NCBI GenBank assembly: GCA_005787665.1
Contig: SYAB01000084.1
Span: 1-9,620, forward strand
Direction of reading: 5' to 3'
Length of the DNA stretch: 9,620 bases
Source of the DNA: Actinomycetota bacterium
GTDB lineage: Bacteria > Actinomycetota > Actinomycetes > Mycobacteriales > Mycobacteriaceae
Shown here: positions 1 through 9,142 of the stretch, one piece after another
Numbering within the stretch: the first letter of the stretch is position 1
How the letters are laid out: each line of letters opens with the position of its first letter
The notes under the pieces: model-generated
Database searches by the model: none
The model's input: only the letters and a program-made list of their open reading frames with translations
Told to the model about the DNA's origin: nothing
Made by a program: the position numbers and the translations under genes

Positions 1-155
1 GCGGGGTCCTCGCAGTGCGCCGCGATCAAATCGTGCAGCGCTCGGATGCCGATCATCCCCTCGGGCAGTCGCCGCGAGGCCAGCCGGGTACCGGCCTCAT
101 CCATCAGATACACGTCATGATGGTCTTCGGCCCAGTCATCGCCGACGAAGATCAT
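1..155 (-). CDS. IS110-family transposase, N-terminal fragment (cut by window edge)
   Basis: This is the start of a DEDD (RuvC-like) transposase that excises and inserts its element by RNA-guided recombination. The 51 visible residues begin MIFVGDDWAEDHHDVYLMDE, the usual opening beta-strand of IS110 enzymes; Asp7 is the likely first catalytic Asp, equivalent to the Asp in the common G-I-D-V-x-K opening. The text that follows (LASRRLPEG, then ALHDLIAAH) also fits the family. The rest, including the C-terminal transposase domain with its catalytic Ser, lies outside the window, so intactness cannot be judged. I chose ATG at 155 because GGAGGAGG at 164-171 sits 8 nt upstream; GTG at 164 is in frame but overlaps that site, and ATG at 159 is out of frame. 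The gene reads in the same direction as the ABC genes but is separated from them by the noncoding end of the element. Confidence 0.87.
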   Translation of the reverse strand, partial: MIFVGDDWAEDHHDVYLMDEAGTRLASRRLPEGMIGIRALHDLIAAHCEDP

Positions 156-224: not shown

Positions 225-383
225 CCTAATGGATCAGTGCTCACAACGGCACGACACCCCATCAGCGCTACAAGCGACCTCACCGAACCGGCCGGGGCAC
301 GATCTAGGACTAGGAGTCCAACACACACTCCGGGGGCAAGCAGTGCTCACCGGCCAGCGGCTCAGTGATCAGCGTCCCGCTAC
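225..383 (-). ncRNA. Candidate IS110 bridge (seek) RNA with two repeated modules
   Basis: No protein gene is supported in 156-447. On the minus strand this stretch holds two copies of the same layout: GTAGCG and CTGAT blocks, a 16-17 nt variable stretch, the 10-mer GTGAGCACTG, then a variable block. The first copy is at 383 down to 330 and the second at 271 down to 225. A perfect 5-bp hairpin (GGACT-CCT-AGTCC, 307-319) lies between them and another stem (CTCGC/GCGAG, 182-202) precedes the transposase ribosome site. Known IS110-group bridge RNAs carry a target-binding loop followed by a donor-binding loop, each with left and right guide segments, encoded just upstream of the transposase. The duplicated module matches that plan. 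Ends, promoter and folding are not determined; the noncoding role is an inference from family architecture. Confidence 0.45.
235..350. repeat. Direct 10-bp repeat CAGTGCTCAC, two copies 106 bp apart
   Basis: The plus strand has CAGTGCTCAC at 235-244 and again at 341-350. Each is followed, after 16 or 17 nt, by ATCAGCG (261-267 and 368-374), so the two matches are offset by 106 and 107 bp and belong to one degenerate duplication. CGCTAC also recurs (266-271 and 378-383). They define the constant parts of the noncoding RNA candidate. Confidence 0.75.
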
Positions 384-447
384 TCAGGCAGAACCTGCGG
401 ACACGCCACGCCGATCGAATCCCATTAGGGGCCCCATCCGGCGGCCG

Positions 448-2259
448 TCACGCCAGCGAGTCGATCCAGGCCCGGTGCAGCACCGCGTACCGGCCGCCGG
501 AGCCGATCAGCGCGGCGGGTTCGCCGTCCTCCACCACGCGGCCGCGCTCCAGCACCAGCACCCGGTCGGCGATCGCGACCGTGGACAGTCGGTGGGCGAT
601 GATCACCGCGGTGCGCCCCGCGAGCACCGTGCGAAGAGCCCGCTGCACCAGGCGTTCGCTGGGGACGTCCAGTGCCGAGGTCGCCTCATCGAGGATGAGC
701 ACGGCGGGGTCGGCCAGGAACGCCCGGGCGAACGCGATCAGCTGGCGTTGTCCGGCGCTGAGCCGACCGCCCCGGGTGGCCACATCGGTGTCATAGCCGT
801 CCGGCAGCTCCGCGATGAATCCGTCGGCGCCGACGGCGACGGCGGCTGCGCGCACGTCGGCGTCGCCGGCCCCCGGAAGCCCGAAGCGGATGTTGTCGGC
901 GACACTTCCGCTGAAGAGGAAGTTCTCCTGGGTCACCAGGACGATGTGGCGACGCAGATCGACGTTGGCGAGCTGCCGAAGGTCGATACCGTCGAGGGTG
1001 ACCGCTCCCGCATCGGGGTCGTAGAACCGGGCGATCAGTTTGGCGATGGTGGTCTTGCCCGCGCCGGAGGTGCCGACCAGCGCCACGGTCTGTCCGGCGG
1101 GCACCCGCAGCGTCATCCCGGAGAGCACCGGATAGCCGGGCGTGTAGCCGAAGTGAACGTCGGCAAGGGCGATGTCGCCGCGGGCGGTGGCCAGGGGTGT
1201 CGGCTCGGCAGGGTCCTCGACATCGGATTGCGCGGCGAGAACGCCGGCGATCTTCTCCAGCGCGGAGGAAGCCGACTGGAAGGTGTTGAAGAACTGCGAG
1301 ATGTCCTGCATCGGTTCGAAGAACATCCGTAGATAGAGCAGGAACGCCGTCAGTGTTCCGATGGTCATCTCCTCCCCGATGACCCGGTACCCGCCGTAGA
1401 GCAGCACCGCCCCGGTGGTGAGGTTGCCGACGAGTTTCGTCGCGGGCATGAAGATCGCCAGCAGCCGGAACGTCCTTTCGTTGACGTCCCGGTAGTCGTC
1501 GGCGACCTCCTCGAAGATCTCCTGATTGCGGGCCTGGCGCCGATAGGCTTGGACGGCTTTGATGCCGGTCATCGTCTCGACGAACTGAACGATCACCGCT
1601 GCCGCGCTCTCGCGGACCCTCCGGTAGGTCTTGGCCGACTCCCGGGCGAACCAGCGCACCAGGAAGACCAGCACCGGGAAGGCGAGCAGACAGATCAGGC
1701 CGAGTCGGACGTCGAGCACCACCAGCAGAACGGCCGTTCCGAACATGGTCAGCACCGCCGTCACCAGACTGTCGAAGCCGGTGTCGAGCATCTCTGCGAT
1801 GGCGTCGATGTCGTTGGTGGATCGGCTGACCACCCGGCCCGAGGTATAGCGGTCATGGAAGGCGACGTCGAGGCGCTCGAAGTGCCGAAACAACCTGCGG
1901 CGCAATTCGAGCAGCACCCGCTGACCGACCCGACCGGCAGCATTGAGGAACACCAGCCGGCCGCCGGCCTGAATCACCAGCAGACCGCACAACGCGGTCA
2001 CCACCATGATCAGCTCGCCCGCTGACCCGCCGGCCGCCAGTGGCGGGATCGCGCGGTCGATACCGCGTTTGACCAACAGTGGGATGGCCAGCTTCGCCGC
2101 GTTCTCGACGATCACCACGGCGGCCAGCGCGACGATGACGAGCCGGTAGGGCCGTAGCAGCGAACCCAGGAGTGCGCGGGCCGCGCGGCGGTACTGCGCC
2201 CGCTCGCCGGCCGGCAGATCATCGACCGGCTCATCGAAGCGGCCGCGCCACTCGCTCAC
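448..2259 (-). CDS. ABC exporter half-transporter, consensus-site subunit
   Basis: Second subunit (603 aa) of a predicted heterodimeric type IV ABC exporter in the plasma membrane: six-helix transmembrane domain (about residues 35-320) then a nucleotide-binding domain. Numbered from the GTG at 2259: Walker A GTSGAGKT at 396-403, Q-loop Gln444, signature LSAGQ at 500-504, Walker B VLILD at 520-524 followed by catalytic Glu525, H-loop His556. The signature is non-canonical (Ala for Gly), so this chain supplies a good Walker B but a poor signature, complementary to its partner. The GTG start overlaps the stop of the upstream gene as GTGA, with GGAAGG about 10 nt upstream, which implies translational coupling; an in-frame TTG at 2277 would add six residues. 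The adjacent M. tuberculosis pair Rv1273c/Rv1272c is similar in kind, but orthology and substrate (lipid, drug or siderophore are all possible) cannot be decided here. Confidence 0.93.
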   Translation of the reverse strand: MSEWRGRFDEPVDDLPAGERAQYRRAARALLGSLLRPYRLVIVALAAVVIVENAAKLAIPLLVKRGIDRAIPPLAAGGSAGELIMVVTALCGLLVIQAGGRLVFLNAAGRVGQRVLLELRRRLFRHFERLDVAFHDRYTSGRVVSRSTNDIDAIAEMLDTGFDSLVTAVLTMFGTAVLLVVLDVRLGLICLLAFPVLVFLVRWFARESAKTYRRVRESAAAVIVQFVETMTGIKAVQAYRRQARNQEIFEEVADDYRDVNERTFRLLAIFMPATKLVGNLTTGAVLLYGGYRVIGEEMTIGTLTAFLLYLRMFFEPMQDISQFFNTFQSASSALEKIAGVLAAQSDVEDPAEPTPLATARGDIALADVHFGYTPGYPVLSGMTLRVPAGQTVALVGTSGAGKTTIAKLIARFYDPDAGAVTLDGIDLRQLANVDLRRHIVLVTQENFLFSGSVADNIRFGLPGAGDADVRAAAVAVGADGFIAELPDGYDTDVATRGGRLSAGQRQLIAFARAFLADPAVLILDEATSALDVPSERLVQRALRTVLAGRTAVIIAHRLSTVAIADRVLVLERGRVVEDGEPAALIGSGGRYAVLHRAWIDSLA

Positions 2260-4196
2260 GGCGGGCCTACCTTCCAAACCGCATCACCGGCCGGCGGCCG
2301 GGCTGCCGCCTGCTGCTCGGCGGACTCCTCGCGCAGGTGGTCGAGTCGACGCCGTTCGGTGTCGTCCTCCCATTGCGGCCGGGGTTCGCAGCCGTCGTCG
2401 AGTTCGTCGTCGGCGGCCAGCAGATATCGGTAGCGCGGAACCCGCGCCAGCAGTTCCTCGTGGGTGCCCACATGGGTGATAGTCCCCGCGCCGTCCACGG
2501 TGTCCAGCAACGCAACCTTGTCGGCCAGCTGGATGGTCGAAGCGCGATGTGCCACAACGATTCCGGTGACCGACGCCAGCACCCGGCGCAACGCGGCGGT
2601 GACGGCCTCCTCGGTGTGGACGTCCAGGGCCGACAGGGTGTCATCGAGCACCAGCACACTGGGATCGGCGAGGATGGCTCGGGCCAGCGCCAGCCGTTGA
2701 CGCTGGCCACCCGACAGGCTCATCCCCTGCTCGCCGATGCGGGTCTGCAGTCCGAAGGGCAGGTCGGCGACGAACTGCGCGGCCGCCACCGACAGGGCCC
2801 GCTGCACGGCACGCTCATCGGCATCGGGCCGGCCCAGACGCAGGTTCTCGGCCACCGACATGGAGAACAGGGTCGGGTCCTCGAAGGCCACGGCAACCGA
2901 GGTCCGCAGCGCCGCCAGGGACAGATCGCGGATGTCGACGCCGTCAAGGCGGATCGCCCCCTCCGTCACGTCGTAGAGCCGGGGCAGCAAAGCGGCCAAC
3001 ACCGACTTGCCCGAGCCGGTCGCACCCACCAGCGCCAGAGTCTGTCCCGGTTCGACGATGAGACTGACGTGTCGCAGCGTCCAGGTCTGGCTGCCGGGGA
3101 AGCGGAAGCCGACGTCGTCGAGTTCCAGGCGGCCTCCGCGCGGCGCCTCCCGGATCGGGCCGTCGGTGATCTCCAGCGGCTCGTCGAAGACCTCGGCGAT
3201 CCGGTTGGCCGCGGTCATCGCCTCCTGCGTCATCGACAGCAGGAAACCCAGGGATGCGATCGGCCAGACCAGCGACAGCATCATGGTGATGAAGGCCACC
3301 AGTGTGCCCAGGGTGACCAGACCCCGGCCGGCGGCTACGGCGCCGAAGCCCAGGACGACGATCAGGGTGACGTTGGGGATGGCCCCGAGCAGTGTCCAGA
3401 ACCGCGCCGAGACCGCCACCTTGCGGACCTGGGTCCGGTAGAGCGTCGTCGCCTGCTCATCGAATCGGTCGTAGACGTAGTCCTCCCGGCCGAAGGACTT
3501 CACCACCCGCAGTCCCAACGCCGATTCCTCGACGACGGTCGCCACGTGACCGGCCTCGTCCTGGGCTCGGCGCGACAACGCGGTGAACGTCCGCTCGAAA
3601 CGCACCATGGTGACGGTGATCGGCAGGACCGAGACCGCCACGATCGTCCCGAGCGGCCAGTACATCGCGAGCAGGATGACCGTGATGACGACGATCTGCG
3701 CGACGTTGAGCATCAGGAAGATCAACCCGAAGGACAGTAACCGGCGAATCGTGCTCAGGTCGTTCATGATCCGCGACAGCAACTGCCCGGACTGCCAGCG
3801 TCCGTGGAAGGACATCGGCAGGATCTGCAGCCGGGCGTAGAGGTCCTTGCGGATGTCGGCCTCCACACCCATGGTGGCCCGGGCCACCAGCCACCGGCGG
3901 ATGAACCACAGCGCCGCCTCGACGATTCCGACCGCCACCGCCGCCGAACCCAGGATCCACAGTCCGTGCGGGTCGCGCTGGCGCACCGGACCGTCGATCA
4001 CCGCCCGGGTCATCAGCGGGATCGCCACGGTGGCCCCCAGGCTGGCCAGCGCAACGATCACCATGGCGATCCACCGGGTCCGATAGGGCATCAGGTAGGG
4101 CAGGAGTCGCAGCAGGTCGGAGGCCGTCCGGACGCGGCGGGGACGCGATGCGATCACGGGCTCCGGCCGCGGTACCGCGGCGCTCACCTTGGTCAC
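2256..4196 (-). CDS. ABC exporter half-transporter, degenerate-site subunit
   Basis: First gene of the exporter operon (646 aa): transmembrane domain at about residues 40-325, nucleotide-binding domain at about 357-595. Walker A GATGSGKS is at 391-398, signature LSGGQ at 494-498 and the H-loop His at 550. Two catalytic positions are altered: the Q-loop has Glu439 (context [10 protein letters not shown]) where Gln is normal, and the residue after Walker B is Asp519 instead of Glu (VLVLDD). In heterodimeric exporters of the TM287/288 type such changes mark the non-hydrolysing ATP site, formed with the partner's LSAGQ. A charged 50-residue tail (597-646) follows the ATPase domain. GTG at 4196 is chosen because GGAGGAGG (4208-4215) lies 11 nt upstream; GTG at 4187 is a possible alternative. 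Divergent from prrA across 83 bp. Substrate unknown. Confidence 0.93.
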
Positions 4197-4279: not shown

Positions 4280-4981
4280 ATGGACAGCGGCTCTGCCTCT
4301 CCGCGCGTGCTGGTCGTCGATGACGACCCCGACGTGCTCGCCTCGCTGGAGCGCGGGCTGCGGCTGTCCGGATTCGAGGTCGCGACCGCAGTCGACGGCG
4401 CCGAGGCGCTGCGCAGCGCCACCGAGCACCGTCCCGACGCGATCGTGCTCGATATCAACATGCCGGTGCTGGACGGGGTCAGCGTGGTGACCGCTCTGCG
4501 CGCGATGGACAACGACGTGCCGGTGTGTGTGCTGTCGGCCCGAAGCTCCGTCGACGACCGGGTGGCCGGCCTCGAGGCGGGCGCCGACGACTACCTCGTG
4601 AAGCCCTTCGTGTTGGCCGAACTGGTGGCCCGGGTCAAGGCCCTGCTGCGCCGCCGCGGTGCGACGGCGACATTCTCCTCGGAGACCATTCAGGTCGGGG
4701 CGCTGGAGGTCGACATCCCCGGGCGCCGTGCCCGGGTCAACGGCGTGGACGTCGATCTGACCAAACGCGAGTTCGACCTGCTCGCGGTTCTCGCCGAGCA
4801 CAAGACCGCGGTCCTGAGCCGGGCGCAGCTGCTGGAACTGGTGTGGGGTTACGACTTCGCCGCCGACACCAACGTGGTGGACGTGTTCATCGGCTATCTG
4901 CGCCGCAAGCTCGAGGCCGGCGGTGCGCCCCGACTGCTGCACACCGTGCGTGGGGTGGGCTTCGTGCTGCGTACCCAGTGA
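4280..4981 (+). CDS. prrA: PrrA, OmpR-family response regulator
   Basis: DNA-binding response regulator of the mycobacterial PrrAB two-component system, 233 aa. The receiver domain (about residues 8-122) shows the acidic pocket Asp14-Asp15-Asp16, phospho-acceptor Asp58 (VLDINMP), Ser86 (VLSARSS) and Lys108 (DYLVKPF). The winged-helix effector domain (about 140-230) contains [15 protein letters not shown] and a C-terminal VRGVGFVLR wing typical of OmpR/PhoB proteins. The text agrees very closely with M. tuberculosis PrrA as I remember it, which in that species is essential and induced early in macrophage infection. The M. tuberculosis protein begins MGGMD; here the first codon of that motif is TAT, so translation must begin at the second Met (4280). 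The same frame is open back to 4148, but that part overlaps the divergent ABC gene and is not protein-like. prrB follows after 12 bp. Confidence 0.95.
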
Positions 4982-4995
4982 CCGGGTGACCCGGT
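4981..4995. promoter_or_regulatory. 15-bp palindrome across the prrA stop / prrB start
   Basis: ACCGGGT-G-ACCCGGT is a perfect inverted repeat with 7-bp arms and a single central base. It begins with the last base of the prrA stop codon and ends within the GTG start of prrB. As RNA it could form ACCGG/CCGGT with a 5-nt loop, covering the place where a prrB ribosome site would lie; no good GGAGG is visible there. It may tune prrB translation relative to prrA, or be a protein site. The palindrome is seen; the role is inferred. Confidence 0.4.
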
Positions 4996-6334
4996 GCTGC
5001 TGTCGCGCTTCTTCCGCCGAACCCCCTCCCTGCGAACCCGGGTGGCGTTCGCAACCGCGATCGGCGCCGCGATCGTCGTGACGATCGTCGGCACCATCGT
5101 CTGGATCGGCATCACCAACGACCGCCTGGAACGCCTCGATCGTCGCCTCGACGAAGCCGCCGGCTTCGCGGTCCCCTTCGTGCCGCGCGGGCTGGATCAG
5201 ATCCCGCTGAACCCCAACGTCCGCGATGTGGTGATCACCGTGCACCGCGGCGACGAGGTGCGATCGAACTCCGGGGTGGTGCTGCCCGAACTCGACAGCG
5301 ACTACGCCACCACCGAGGTGGACGGAGTGCGCTACCGGGTCCGCACGGTCGAAATCCCCTACCCCGAGCCGCCGACCATGCTGCAGGTCGGCGCCACCTA
5401 CGACGACACCGTCGCCGACACCAAGAACCTGCATCGCCGGGTCCTGGTGATCTGTATCTTCGCCGTCGGCGCGGCCGCCCTGCTGGGCTGGTTGCTGGCC
5501 GCGTTCGCGGTGCGCCCGCTGCGCCGGCTGGCCCAGCAGACCCGGCAGATCGACGCCGGCGGTGGCGCACCGGAGATCGACGTCAGCGGAGCCAGCGAGG
5601 CCGTCGAGATCGGCGAGGCGCTCAACGGCCTGCTGGAGCGGATCTGGACCGAACAGGACCGAACCCGCGCCGCACTGACCTCGGCTCGGGACTTCGCCGC
5701 GGTGTCCGCGCACGAACTGCGCACCCCACTCACTGCGATGCGGACCAATCTCGAGGTGCTGTCCACCTTGGAACTGCCCCCCGAACAGCGCAAAGAGGTG
5801 CTCGGCGACGTGATACGGACGCAGAGCCGGATCGAATCGACTCTGGGCGCACTGGAGCGGCTGGCTCAGGGCGAACTGTCCACCGCCGCCGATCAGGTCC
5901 CGGTGGACATCACCGAACTGCTCGACCGGGCGGCTCACGACGCGATGCGGGTGTTCCCGGGCCTCGAGGTGACACTGGCCCCCTCGCCCACATGCATCAT
6001 CATCGGCTTACCCGCGGGTCTGCGTCTGACGGTGGACAACGCGATCGCCAATGCGGTCAAGCATGGCGGGGCGACCCGGGTACACCTGTCGGCCGTCACG
6101 TCCCGAGCCGGGGTCGAGATCGCCGTCGATGACAACGGCAGCGGGGTTCCGCACACCGAGCGCCAGTCGGTCTTCGAGCGTTTCGCCCGCGGCAGCACCG
6201 CATCCCGGTCGGGGTCGGGACTGGGCCTGGCCTTGGTGGCCCAGCAAGCCGAAATCCACGGTGGCACAGCGTCGTTGGAAGACAGCCCTTTGGGGGGCGC
6301 CCGGTTGGTGCTGCGCCTCCCGCCACCCCACTAA
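4994..6334 (+). CDS. prrB: PrrB, membrane sensor histidine kinase
   Basis: Sensor kinase that phosphorylates PrrA, 446 aa. A basic N-terminus precedes TM1 (about 17-40). An extracytoplasmic sensor domain of about 108 residues follows, then TM2 (about 150-173) and a HAMP linker (from RPLRRL, about 174-222). The dimerisation/phosphotransfer helix carries SAHELRTPL with phospho-acceptor His240. The ATPase domain has N-box DNAIANAVKHGG (349-359), G1 DDNGSGV (379-385), F-box region ERFARG (395-400) and G2 GSGLGLAL (407-414). All kinase motifs are intact. The GTG start at 4994 gives MLLSRFFRRTPSLRTRV, the expected cytoplasmic start; ribosome-site complementarity is poor, so expression probably depends on coupling with prrA. 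The signal it senses is not evident from the sequence. It ends convergently with arfC, 26 bp away. Confidence 0.94.
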   Translation: MLLSRFFRRTPSLRTRVAFATAIGAAIVVTIVGTIVWIGITNDRLERLDRRLDEAAGFAVPFVPRGLDQIPLNPNVRDVVITVHRGDEVRSNSGVVLPELDSDYATTEVDGVRYRVRTVEIPYPEPPTMLQVGATYDDTVADTKNLHRRVLVICIFAVGAAALLGWLLAAFAVRPLRRLAQQTRQIDAGGGAPEIDVSGASEAVEIGEALNGLLERIWTEQDRTRAALTSARDFAAVSAHELRTPLTAMRTNLEVLSTLELPPEQRKEVLGDVIRTQSRIESTLGALERLAQGELSTAADQVPVDITELLDRAAHDAMRVFPGLEVTLAPSPTCIIIGLPAGLRLTVDNAIANAVKHGGATRVHLSAVTSRAGVEIAVDDNGSGVPHTERQSVFERFARGSTASRSGSGLGLALVAQQAEIHGGTASLEDSPLGGARLVLRLPPPH

Positions 6335-6360: not shown

Positions 6361-7536
6361 TCAGGTGAAGTTCTTGTCCCACTTGTCGAAGCCGGCCGCC
6401 CGCGCGGTGGCCTCGTCGAAGAACCACACCTCGGCGATCGTCTGCTCGTAGGCGGGGCTGTCGGGCCCGTGGAAGAGCATCGAGTCGGCGTTGCCCTTGA
6501 TCAGCCAGCCCGCGGGTCCACTCCCACCGGAGCCGGGGGCGGCGGAGCCCTTTCCGTAGGGACCGGCCGGCACGTCGGCGACGGCGGCGATGGCGGCACC
6601 GCCGCTGCCCCCCTTGTCGGAGTCCCAGCGCAGGAAGCCGGCTTTGCGGGCGGACTCCTCGTCGGCGAACCACACCTCGGCGATGGTCTGTGAGTACCAA
6701 CGGCTTTCGGTGGTGTGGTAGAGCATCGAGTCGGCATTGCCCTTGATGGTCCAGCCGGCCGGGCCGGTGCCGTCGGCATTGGCCTTGGCCGAGCCCGGGC
6801 CGTACGGGCCGGCCGGGACATCCTCGATCGCCGCGAATTTGGCCGCGATCGTGCCCGATACCGCGTCCATCTTCGCGTCCACCTTGGCAGCACCCGCCGC
6901 CAGCTTGGCATCGGCCGCGTCCAGTTTGGCGTCTATCTTGGCGTCCGCCGCGTCCAGCTTGGCGTCCACCTTGGCAGCACCCGCCGCCAGCTTGGCATCG
7001 GCCGCATCAAGCTTCGCGTCCACCTTGGCGGCACCCGCGGCCAGCTTGGCATCCGCCGCATCAAGCTTCGCGTCCACCTTGGCCCCGGCGGCGTCCAGCT
7101 TGGCGCCGACCGCGTCGAGCTTGGCGTCCGCCTTGGCGGCGGCGGCATCCAACGTGACCTCCGCCTTGGCGGAGGCGGTGTCCAGGGCATCGCCGGCCTT
7201 GCGGGCGGTCGCATCCCAGGCGTCGCTGGCCTCGTCGATCGTGCCGCCGACGGCGTCGATCACCTTGTCGGCGGTGTCGCCGACCTTGTCGGCTGCGTCG
7301 GACAGCTTCGCCGACACACCCGCGGCCGCAGCCGCTCCGGCGGCAGTGACCGTCCCGGCCACCTTGCCGAGGTCGGCCTTAAGGTCGACCTTGCCCACCT
7401 GCGGAGCCTTGACCGATGCCGACACCGAATGGGTGACCGGGACCTCCCGGGTGACCTTGCGGATCATCATGGCAAAGGTCAGCAACAGGCCCATCACGAA
7501 GGCCAGCGTCATCAACCACCAGTTCACGTCGTGCAT
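6361..7536 (-). CDS. arfC: ArfC-like membrane protein with long helical repeat and doubled C-terminal domain
   Basis: Third gene of the arf operon, 391 aa against about 175 in M. tuberculosis ArfC. The N-terminus (MHDVNWWLMTLAFVMGLLLT) is the ArfC-type membrane anchor, TM at about 6-25. Residues about 50-235 are Ala/Lys/Asp-rich and almost free of Pro and aromatics, except Trp107; 135-228 is a regular repeat of units KVDAKLDAADA (11) and KLAAGAA (7). Two copies of a 67-residue domain follow (239-305, 321-387), marked by DVPAGPYG, GPAGW, IKGNADSML and QTIAEVWF; this is the conserved ArfC C-terminal domain that I believe annotation pipelines call the sunset domain. ArfA and ArfB are its expected partners; in M. 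tuberculosis the operon is linked to acid adaptation and ammonia release. The ATG overlaps the arfB stop by one base (TGATG), with GGAG 7 nt upstream. The domain's ligand is unknown. Confidence 0.9.
   Translation of the reverse strand: MHDVNWWLMTLAFVMGLLLTFAMMIRKVTREVPVTHSVSASVKAPQVGKVDLKADLGKVAGTVTAAGAAAAAGVSAKLSDAADKVGDTADKVIDAVGGTIDEASDAWDATARKAGDALDTASAKAEVTLDAAAAKADAKLDAVGAKLDAAGAKVDAKLDAADAKLAAGAAKVDAKLDAADAKLAAGAAKVDAKLDAADAKIDAKLDAADAKLAAGAAKVDAKMDAVSGTIAAKFAAIEDVPAGPYGPGSAKANADGTGPAGWTIKGNADSMLYHTTESRWYSQTIAEVWFADEESARKAGFLRWDSDKGGSGGAAIAAVADVPAGPYGKGSAAPGSGGSGPAGWLIKGNADSMLFHGPDSPAYEQTIAEVWFFDEATARAAGFDKWDKNFT
6376..6822 (-). repeat. Tandem duplication of the ArfC C-terminal (sunset-type) domain
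   Basis: Copy 1 is coded at 6622-6822 (residues 239-305) and copy 2 at 6376-6576 (residues 321-387). Both are 67 residues long and align without gaps, with about two thirds of positions identical by eye (46 of 67 in my count). Invariant parts include DVPAGPYG, GPAGW, IKGNADSML, QTIAEVWF and AGF..WD. The 15-residue linker is Gly/Ser/Ala-rich. The remembered M. tuberculosis ArfC has one such domain. Confidence 0.85.
6853..7134 (-). repeat. Coding tandem repeat in arfC, 54-bp (18-residue) units
   Basis: Residues 135-228 parse completely as units of 11 and 7 residues in the order 11-7-11-7-11-7-11-11-7-11. The core 54-bp unit occurs at 7027-7080 and 6973-7026 with only three base differences. 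A third copy (from 6972 down) contains one extra 33-bp hendecad. Flanking units are more diverged. This points to recent expansion by slippage or recombination, always in frame and always by whole helical units. Confidence 0.88.
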
Positions 7537-7702: not shown

Positions 7703-8650
7703 CTAGCTCACTTTGATGTCGGTGCGGCGGTTCTGGGCCCGTCCGGCCTCGGTGTCATTGCTGGCGACCGGCTCGGAGGACCCGGCGCCCTTGCTGGCGA
7801 TCACGTCGGCCGGGATGCCCTGCGACGCCAGGTAGGCGGCGACGGACTTGGCCCGGCTCTCGCTGAGCGGGTCGTTGATCGCGTCGGTACCGGTGTTGTC
7901 GGTGTGGCCGATCACGGTCAGTTTCACCGCCGGGCAGGCCTTGACCGCCGTGGCGACATTCGACAACCGCTGTTCCTCGCCCGCGTTCAACCGGTCGCTG
8001 CCGGTCTCGAATTTAATCGGCACGGCGAGGTCGGCATCGATGTTGGCCTGCAGGTTGTCGCACGAGGGTGCCGCACCGGTGATGGTGATGTTGTTGATGA
8101 TCTGGACGTTCGGCCAGCCCGCTTTCGCGGCGGCCTCGATGGCCGCCCGGACGTCCTCCGACGGCGCGGTCCCGTTGAGGGTCATGGTGTTGCCCTCCAC
8201 CGTGAACTGGAAGTCCGGGACGTCTGTCGCCGCCTTGAGCAGAGCGCTCAGACCGCCGAAGTCGGGTGCGGTCGCGCCGGCAGCGATGTCGATCTTGTCG
8301 ATGAGGTTGACCGCCGGACCGAGCGCAGACTTGAGGGCGGCGAGCAGGCTGTTCTTCACCGACAGGTCGGGCAGGATGCCCGAGAGGGTGAAATCGTTGC
8401 CGTTGCGCAGGATGGACAGCGGCGAGAAGTTCAGGGCCGGCATCGACACGTTCGGCGCGCTGACGCTCACGTCCGGCGCGTTGACGTTCACCTTGGGCTT
8501 GAGCGCACCCCAGCCCAGCCACCCGAACAGCAGCGGTATGAGCAGCAGACCCAACAGCCAACCCCATCCGGGCGACCGCCGGTAGTACCGCGACTCTGTC
8601 CGCCACTCGGTTGCCGTCGCGCTCACCCGCGCGTCGCCGGAACCCGTCAT
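7703..8650 (-). CDS. arfA: ArfA / OmpATb, BON plus OmpA-like peptidoglycan-binding protein
   Basis: First gene of the arf operon, 315 aa (M. tuberculosis OmpATb is 326). A hydrophilic N-terminus leads to one hydrophobic segment at about 28-48, an uncleaved anchor rather than a signal peptide. The middle region (about 75-195) is the BON-type domain of OmpATb, and residues about 200-315 form the OmpA C-terminal fold. The peptidoglycan-binding pattern is clear: GHTDNTG with Asp251 and N-x-x-L-S-x-x-R-A-x-x-V at 259-270 with Arg266. Cys197 and Cys239 are 42 residues apart, the same spacing as the disulfide pair known in M. tuberculosis OmpATb. The protein was first described as a porin and later tied to acid-stress ammonia release with ArfB and ArfC. 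ATG at 8650 has GGAGGAGGG a few bases upstream. Confidence 0.94.
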   Translation of the reverse strand: MTGSGDARVSATATEWRTESRYYRRSPGWGWLLGLLLIPLLFGWLGWGALKPKVNVNAPDVSVSAPNVSMPALNFSPLSILRNGNDFTLSGILPDLSVKNSLLAALKSALGPAVNLIDKIDIAAGATAPDFGGLSALLKAATDVPDFQFTVEGNTMTLNGTAPSEDVRAAIEAAAKAGWPNVQIINNITITGAAPSCDNLQANIDADLAVPIKFETGSDRLNAGEEQRLSNVATAVKACPAVKLTVIGHTDNTGTDAINDPLSESRAKSVAAYLASQGIPADVIASKGAGSSEPVASNDTEAGRAQNRRTDIKVS

Positions 8651-8782: not shown

Positions 8783-9142
8783 TCAGCCCACGCCGAGCAG
8801 GTCGATCACGAAGATCAGCGTCTTGCCCGAGAGCCGGTGACCGCCTCCGGCCGGACCGTAGGCGGACTCGGGCGGGATGACCAGTTGGCGGCGCCCGCCC
8901 ACCCGCATCCCGGGGATACCGTCCTGCCACCCTTGGATCAGGCCGCGCAGCGGGAACGAGATGGATTCCCCGCGGTTCCAGGAACTGTCGAACTCCTCGC
9001 CGGAGTCGTACTCGACGCCCACGTAGTGGACGTCGACGACGTCGCCGGGCTTGGCCTCCGGGCCGTCCCCGACGATCACGTCGGTGATGACCAGATCTGC
9101 CGGCGGGGGGCCGCCGGGGAAGTCGATTTCGGGTTTAGTCAC
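8783..9142 (-). CDS. FKBP-type peptidyl-prolyl cis-trans isomerase
   Basis: A single-domain FK506-binding prolyl isomerase of 119 aa, assisting protein folding; no signal peptide or lipobox is visible, so it is probably cytoplasmic. After a Pro/Gly-rich lead (1-16) the domain covers about 17-119. Active-site positions of FKBP12 can be matched: Tyr40 (HYVG), Phe51-Asp52 (EFDSSW), Phe63, Leu68-Ile69, Trp72 (LIQGWQDGI), Tyr95 (PPESAYG) and Phe111 (TLIFVID). The pocket is complete, so enzymatic activity is expected. The start is GTG at 9142: the -10-like TACGGT ends 6 nt before it and no ribosome site is present, which suggests a leaderless message. M. tuberculosis has a different small gene (Rv0898c) at this place. 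Confidence 0.93.
   Translation of the reverse strand: MTKPEIDFPGGPPPADLVITDVIVGDGPEAKPGDVVDVHYVGVEYDSGEEFDSSWNRGESISFPLRGLIQGWQDGIPGMRVGGRRQLVIPPESAYGPAGGGHRLSGKTLIFVIDLLGVG

Follow-up and report, generated by a model that had tools for sequence, protein, structure and literature searches.

A probable IS621-type bridge RNA in the left noncoding end of a mycobacterial IS110-group element

The left end of the element and its transposase

The window analyzed here is a 9,620-nucleotide stretch of DNA from a member of the Mycobacteriaceae. On its right-hand side it encodes an FKBP isomerase (8786-9142, minus strand), a BON/OmpA protein (7706-8650, minus strand), and a 391-residue protein (6361-7536, minus strand) that contains many near-identical repeats of the kind AAKVDAKLDAADAKLA. 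The only Pfam match of the repeat protein is apolipoprotein-like, at 29.5 bits against a cutoff of 90. A response regulator with a histidine kinase (4280-6334, plus strand) and two ABC exporter proteins (448-4196, minus strand) follow toward the left. The left edge of the window holds the following features.

3..155, minus strand: N-terminus of an IS110 transposase, 51 codons, leaving the window (PF01548 DEDD_Tnp_IS110, 30.9 bits against a cutoff of 29)
427..428, minus strand: core dinucleotide CT, the left end of the element; likeness among relatives begins here, and the right donor (RD) CTAATGG continues inward
429..442, minus strand: left insertion flank (left target, LT) GCCGGATGGGGCCC, outside the element start

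We drew relatives of this left end from 23 plasmid records, one mycobacteriophage record, and genome contigs (the best 80 of 362 loci). At an E value of 1e-10, left-end relatives were found in 57 of the 396 genomes sampled from one genus. Where the relatives could be aligned, their likeness upstream of the transposase gene starts at CTAATGGG, which is window position 428. Outside this position the flanks vary between elements, with the exception of copies that have a common site or a surrounding repeat (e.g., L004/L012/L015, L020/L021, and L075-L077). Because the likeness starts at 428 and the flanks vary beyond it, the window's element begins at the CT core at 428-427, and the ABC transporter gene at 448-2277 is outside the element, beyond the core. 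CT is also the core of IS621 (PMC11208158). L020 and L021 are two contigs of one Rhodococcus genome that carry the same element; their flanks are identical, and thus the surrounding stretch is itself repeated.

From the core to the transposase start codon we counted 273 nt in the window, a long noncoding left end upstream of the gene, as in IS110-group elements with a left-end bridge RNA. The first-pass annotation had placed this stretch in the noncoding end of an IS110 element, upstream of the transposase, and both the relatives and the PF01548 match bear this out. PF01548 and PF02371 were both present in all three relatives searched; the window shows only 51 amino acids of its transposase, without the C-terminus. 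Across 15 transposases, residues D7, E59, D99, D102, and S316 are invariant, and they sit in motifs that align with IS621 by profile. By analogy with D11, E60, D102, D105, and S241 of IS621, we infer that these are the catalytic residues. A profile of the 15 transposases matched the structures of IS621 (8wt6, 1.1e-14) and ISCro4 (9t56, 5.5e-14), and a phmmer search with the transposase of phage Feyre as the query matched no solved structure at an E value of 0.1. The element of this clade in mycobacteriophage Feyre (L001:2453-3926) lies between a gene annotated as Cro and a hypothetical gene.

An empty site of the window's element was not readable among the 396 sampled genomes. The adjacent ABC transporter stretch has some match in all 396, with a best identity of 81%. 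By eye, the sequence past its stop codon is unconserved in the 32 loci with the flank read, which is why no empty site could be read. A search of Rfam release 15 gave no match at 428-156; the one subthreshold match in the window, at 9043-9093, lies away from the feature.

Structure of the predicted RNA and its repeated blocks

The predicted RNA reads along the minus strand as follows.

369..414, minus strand: 5' stem-loop in which 414-410 pairs with 373-369 around a variable loop (consensus fold, 95.8% of cells paired)
276..367, minus strand: target-binding loop with a stem (361-343/300-282) and an inner hairpin (331-328/316-313) (covariation and covariance model)
342..347, minus strand: handle AGCACU before the left target guide (alignment, handle counts)
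332..340, minus strand: left target guide (LTG), CTTGCCC followed by the core-facing CC (identical to the left flank in relatives, by permutation)
312..317, minus strand: handle ACUCCU before the right target guide (alignment, handle counts)
304..310, minus strand: right target guide (RTG), GTCCT followed by the core-facing AG (in relatives, this block complements the right flank)
303, minus strand: handshake base A after the RTG
264..269, minus strand: handle AGCGCU before the left donor guide (alignment, handle counts)
253..261, minus strand: left donor guide (LDG), TGGGGTGTC (resembles the relatives' right-end TGGGATGTCT, by inspection)
237..252, minus strand: donor-loop hairpin, GTGC (252-249) with GCAC (240-237) (invariant in 48 rows)
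236..241, minus strand: handle AGCACU before the right donor guide (alignment, handle counts)
226..233, minus strand: right donor guide (RDG), TCCATTAG (complements the left-end CTAATGG, 428-422)
225, minus strand: handshake base G after the RDG (matches the left-flank base C at 429)

We aligned the window with 47 relatives. These 48 rows are 48 of 49 references (L040 was left out, and L045-L085 were excluded beforehand), and they were chosen to be nonredundant for the pair of target guides. The consensus fold of the alignment consists of the 5' stem-loop, the target-loop stem, the hairpin between the target guides, and the donor hairpin. Of the 45 consensus pairs, 29 entered the count; weak pairs and those between the left end and the donor guide were set aside. 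In this 29-pair structure, 98.4% of 1,390 cells are paired, and the proportion drops to 23.5 to 48% when the register is slid. Double changes occur at 12 pairs, versus 5.1 in shuffles, and none of 500 shuffles reached any of the five measures. The donor hairpin lacks covariation support because it is invariant in the 48 rows, and the 48-row alignment did not settle the outer stem of the donor loop.

We also built a covariance model of the target loop from 45 of the 47 other rows, holding out the window and its nearest relatives, L030 and L120. The model scored the window at 91.4 bits (E value roughly 1e-20). It also detected L030, L120, and all eight distant relatives searched (41 to 62 bits), and it found no match in the E. 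coli IS621 record or in three ABC transporter loci. The covariance-model search proposed by the first-pass annotation thus does find a structured target loop in the window. The folding of 428-156 alone that was proposed with it was uninformative: the single-sequence fold was no stabler than shuffles (z 0.05).

The first-pass annotation had rested its reading on short blocks that occur twice on the minus strand. We found all of them twice, GTAGCG at 383 and 271, CTGAT at 372 and 265, and GTGAGCACTG at 350 and 244, along with a third CTGAT at 237. The claimed offset of 106 to 107 bp is correct for CTGAT (107) and GTGAGCACTG (106) and wrong for GTAGCG (112); GTAGCG and CTGAT are 5 nt apart in the first module and directly adjoining in the second. 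A repeated 10-mer or longer also arose in 115 of 2,000 dinucleotide shuffles of 428-156, so that this repeat is weak evidence when taken alone; such a repeat together with a collinear 5-mer was rarer (18 of 2,000 dinucleotide shuffles).

Across the 48 rows, GTAGCG stands at the first-module place in 2 and at the second-module place in 25, and CTGAT does so in 32 and 31, respectively. AGCAC is nearly constant ahead of both variable blocks. At 340-332, every one of the 48 rows has its own form of the block, a diversity helped by the choice of rows nonredundant for the target guides; the supposed counterpart at 234-226 takes 4 forms. The alternation of constant and variable blocks is therefore real, and the two-module register is not upheld. 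We found that GTGAGCACTG stands once before the left target guide and once before the right donor guide and that the first CTGAT is mostly an arm of the 5' stem-loop. If the two loops were duplicates in the proposed register, the left target guide would correspond to the right donor guide, and the 5' stem-loop arm to the bases that precede the left donor guide. What actually recurs is A-NNN-C-U, once ahead of each of the four guides, and the first-pass annotation saw mainly two of these four handles.

Guides, insertion flanks, and element ends

We compared the guides with the insertion flanks of the relatives. Flank parsing left out L007, L010, L029, L034, L037, L047, and L084, and no left end was found for L011 and L074. 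The main test used 53 of the 79 parsed rows; it needed both flanks, took one insertion per element, merged identical sites, and excluded the window, which is included in the 79-element test of the left flank. In the 53 elements, the left target guide agreed with the left flank at 5.32 of 7 positions, versus 3.40 by permutation (maximum of 20,000 permutations, 3.92). The values for the 79 elements were 5.06 of 7 versus 3.37 (permutation maximum, 3.81). The right target guide was complementary to the right flank at 3.87 of 4 positions, versus 1.45 (maximum of 20,000 permutations, 2.00), in 62 elements. All four positions were complementary in 55 of these 62, three in 6, and two in 1; in L041, only two of the four right-target bases agree. 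When the 24 nearest elements were taken alone, the left target guide scored 5.13 versus 3.48 and the right target guide scored 3.75 of 4 versus 1.90, and none of 20,000 permutations was as high. These permutations ignore kinship among elements that share targets, and the right target CTGCCG is common to elements of one subclade.

The first-pass annotation had assigned 340-332 to the right target guide. Our own initial reading was the same, with a G-U pair at the core, and we dropped it after the right-flank comparison. The complementarity of this block to the right flank lies at the permutation mean: 3.02 of 5 versus 3.07 in 62 elements, with 15,423 of 20,000 permutations at least as high, and 2.94 versus 3.04 in the 53 elements, again no signal. 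The block equals the left flank instead. The left-end alignment of relatives that had been suggested as a check shows that it varies with the insertion site, as expected, and that the flank it tracks is the left one. The control in the other direction was not flat: tested on the left flank, the right target guide scored 3.09 of 5 versus 2.89, a weak signal reached by 423 of 20,000 permutations.

In the window itself, the left target guide matches its own left flank at 4 of 7 positions; the core-adjoining GCCC agrees, and the next three bases differ. The flanks of 19 of the 53 other elements score equally well, and the assignment for the window thus rests on the relatives. The right target guide at 310-304 predicts the right flank CT-AGGAC; the actual right flank lies outside the window. 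Single elements illustrate the relation. A Rhodococcus element (L003, L018, and L019) occupies three sites that all read CGC-CT-AACT, and its guides are GCTCTCGC and GAGTTAG. Two copies of one element in one genome (L054 and L057) have targets that share GGAGC-CT-GTCA, corresponding to the guides CGGAGC and TGACAG.

Some relatives carry partial copies of the left end. L147:1377-1740 (and L006) contains a truncated left-end copy that ends within the right-target-guide region and is immediately followed by a complete left end. In E. coli, an IS621 copy (L150:1999-2262) likewise has a truncated left end ahead of the full one. Among the IS621 left-end matches, the ten listed span 224 to 262 bp for a 177-nt query. 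Left-end duplications that are partial and differ in length may be recurrent at IS621.

The donor guides relate to the element's own ends. Of 80 elements, 17 have a left end unlike CTAATGGG, and the right donor guide tends to change along with the left end. Agreement between the right donor guide and the right donor was 4.96 of 6 versus 4.54 by permutation (maximum, 4.71) in the 80 elements. Position 8 of the guide agreed in none of the 80; the right donor guide of IS621 likewise pairs discontiguously (PMC11208158). The base after the right donor guide agreed with the last left-target base in 72 of 78 elements (78 of 79, with L145 left out for want of a readable donor guide); permutations gave 45 on average and 56 at most. 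The match is broken in L017, L049, L052, L053, L069, and L070. In IS621, a "handshake" between the donor loop and the target DNA has been described (PMC11208158).

We found a TTGAC hexamer at the right end in all 73 readable loci (TTGACA in 57 of the 73; copies not merged). It lies 17 or 18 nt ahead of the base preceding the core, and this base is T in 71 of 73. The left end starts with CTAAT in 70 of the 71 loci with a left end read. In a circle, the T before the core and the CTAAT start would join into TCTAAT at the junction, and the TTGAC hexamer and TCTAAT would form -35 and -10 boxes. For IS621, a promoter is likewise described as being restored at the junction (PMC11208158).

By analogy with IS621, the element would be excised as a circle, and its abutted ends would form the promoter that drives the bridge RNA. 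Two recombinase dimers would then hold both loops and read target and donor DNA, with strand exchange at the CT core. The relatives support a target loop in which the left guide would carry the left-flank sequence and the right guide would complement the right flank. They likewise support a donor loop in which the left guide would be like the element's right end and the right guide would complement its left end. The base after the right donor guide would match the last left base of the target, as handshake pairing after strand exchange expects. To these steps we would add that all four guides may be held through the same kind of handle, A-NNN-C-U, with one handle for each protomer.

The fourfold handle, rival readings, and known systems

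We counted the handle bases at all four guides (the handle of L006 was not located). The first A was present at 189 of 192 sites in 48 near elements and at 126 of 132 sites in 33 far elements, and the U at +5 was present at 185 of 192 and 126 of 132 sites, respectively. Some misses are slips of the fixed spacing, e.g., at the donor guide of L050, L062, L066, and L081. By handle, the +5 U stands in 44, 48, 48, and 48 rows of the 48-row alignment. In IS621, the flipped-out A43, A67, A116, and A150 and the syn G48, G72, G121, and G155 have the same spacing, and both the A and the syn G are called highly conserved among IS110 family elements (PMC11208158). The pseudo-symmetry of IS621 has already been published, and a six-base motif shared by four guides fits it (PMC11208158). 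In one E. coli IS621 record the handles read AUGCCG, AACCUG, AAACCG, and AAUCCG (A-NNNN-G). Thus, of the conserved A and syn G at the four guides, the A is kept and the G is replaced by U in this clade. Since both bases are published as highly conserved, the clade departs from the family at the second conserved base of the handle. The distances from the A to the core are 14/13/16/15 here versus 14/13/14/15 in IS621. We sought other IS621-like elements and found 5 phage-contig loci and matches in 7 of 246 genomes of the phylum, in which the guides were not placeable. The handle comparison therefore rests on one E. coli record, the other elements being too few and too distant.

Three other readings were weighed. 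On the first, the two modules would be loops duplicated in register, and 340-332 would be the right target guide. The collinear repeat is indeed rare in shuffles (18 of 2,000), and the same motif precedes both blocks. Against this, 340-332 has no complementarity to the right flank and strong identity to the left one, GTAGCG of the first module stands in 2 of 48 rows, and the first CTGAT is mostly paired with the 5' arm. We regard this reading as very improbable. A cis-acting leader or attenuator of the transposase gene, with the variability due to drift, would suit the position just upstream of that gene, but the variable blocks track the insertion flanks across elements, and we find this barely credible. 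A shorter seekRNA-type form, consisting of the target loop alone, could instead be the main active RNA. This reading overlaps with a bridge RNA and does not exclude it, and for ISEc21 the 74-nt seekRNA is the more abundant form (PMC11187229). However, changes at the left end tend to be accompanied by changes in the right donor guide, and the base next to that guide agrees with the target, as is expected if this part works as RNA. We consider the shorter form unlikely as the main active RNA.

We conclude that the minus strand at 428-156 is almost certainly the left noncoding end of an IS110-group element and the coding sequence of an IS621-type bridge RNA. Most likely, this stretch encodes the guide RNA that steers insertion of the mobile element. 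A bridge RNA with target and donor loops had been proposed at the outset, and this much is upheld in the relatives, in which both loops are present, the scaffold is constant, and the target guides vary. Bridge RNAs are predicted for 85.7% of the ISfinder IS110 elements (PMC11208160), so one is to be expected here. Judging by titles and the openings of abstracts, we found no paper on a bridge RNA of these elements in the literature searched; two mycobacterial genome papers mention IS110. On sequence comparison, this appears to be a well-supported new case of an already known kind of RNA, and the U at +5 of the handle is possibly its sole new detail.

The bridge-RNA model, with the handshake base and the promoter boxes at the ends, would extend to a clade with transposases of about 400 residues that is far from IS621. 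With the corrected guide assignment, the target becomes predictable from sequence. Tentatively, we suggest that the bridge RNA may be built around a single protein-binding handle that recurs four times, once for each guide and recombinase protomer, with this clade differing from IS621 at the last base of all four together. The handle might then be a recognition code that shifts in concert with the recombinase, and the RNAs of this clade might be orthogonal to IS621-type recombinases. Such a fourfold handle bears on recombinase-RNA recognition and on orthogonal editing tools.

Among known systems, the IS1111 group shares a DEDD transposase and a guide RNA but carries the RNA mostly in the right end (PMC11208160), whereas it lies in the left end here. 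The ISEc21 seekRNA (PMC11187229) likewise comes from an upstream noncoding region and matches both target strands, with the bottom-strand match 5' of the top-strand match. It differs in that its abundant form is 74 nt and in that the description, in the part used here, covers the target matches, without donor guides. IS621 of E. coli (PMC11208160 and PMC11208158) shares the location at the left end and the target loop before the donor loop. Also shared are the order and strands of LTG, RTG, LDG, and RDG, the handshake base, the CT core, and the promoter boxes that meet at the circle junction. Each guide is preceded by a conserved A in both, and the distance from this A to the core is equal at three of the four guides. 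In contrast, the left donor guide here lies 2 nt further from its A, the transposase has about 400 residues versus 326 in IS621, and the handle base at +5 is U here and G at all four guides of IS621.
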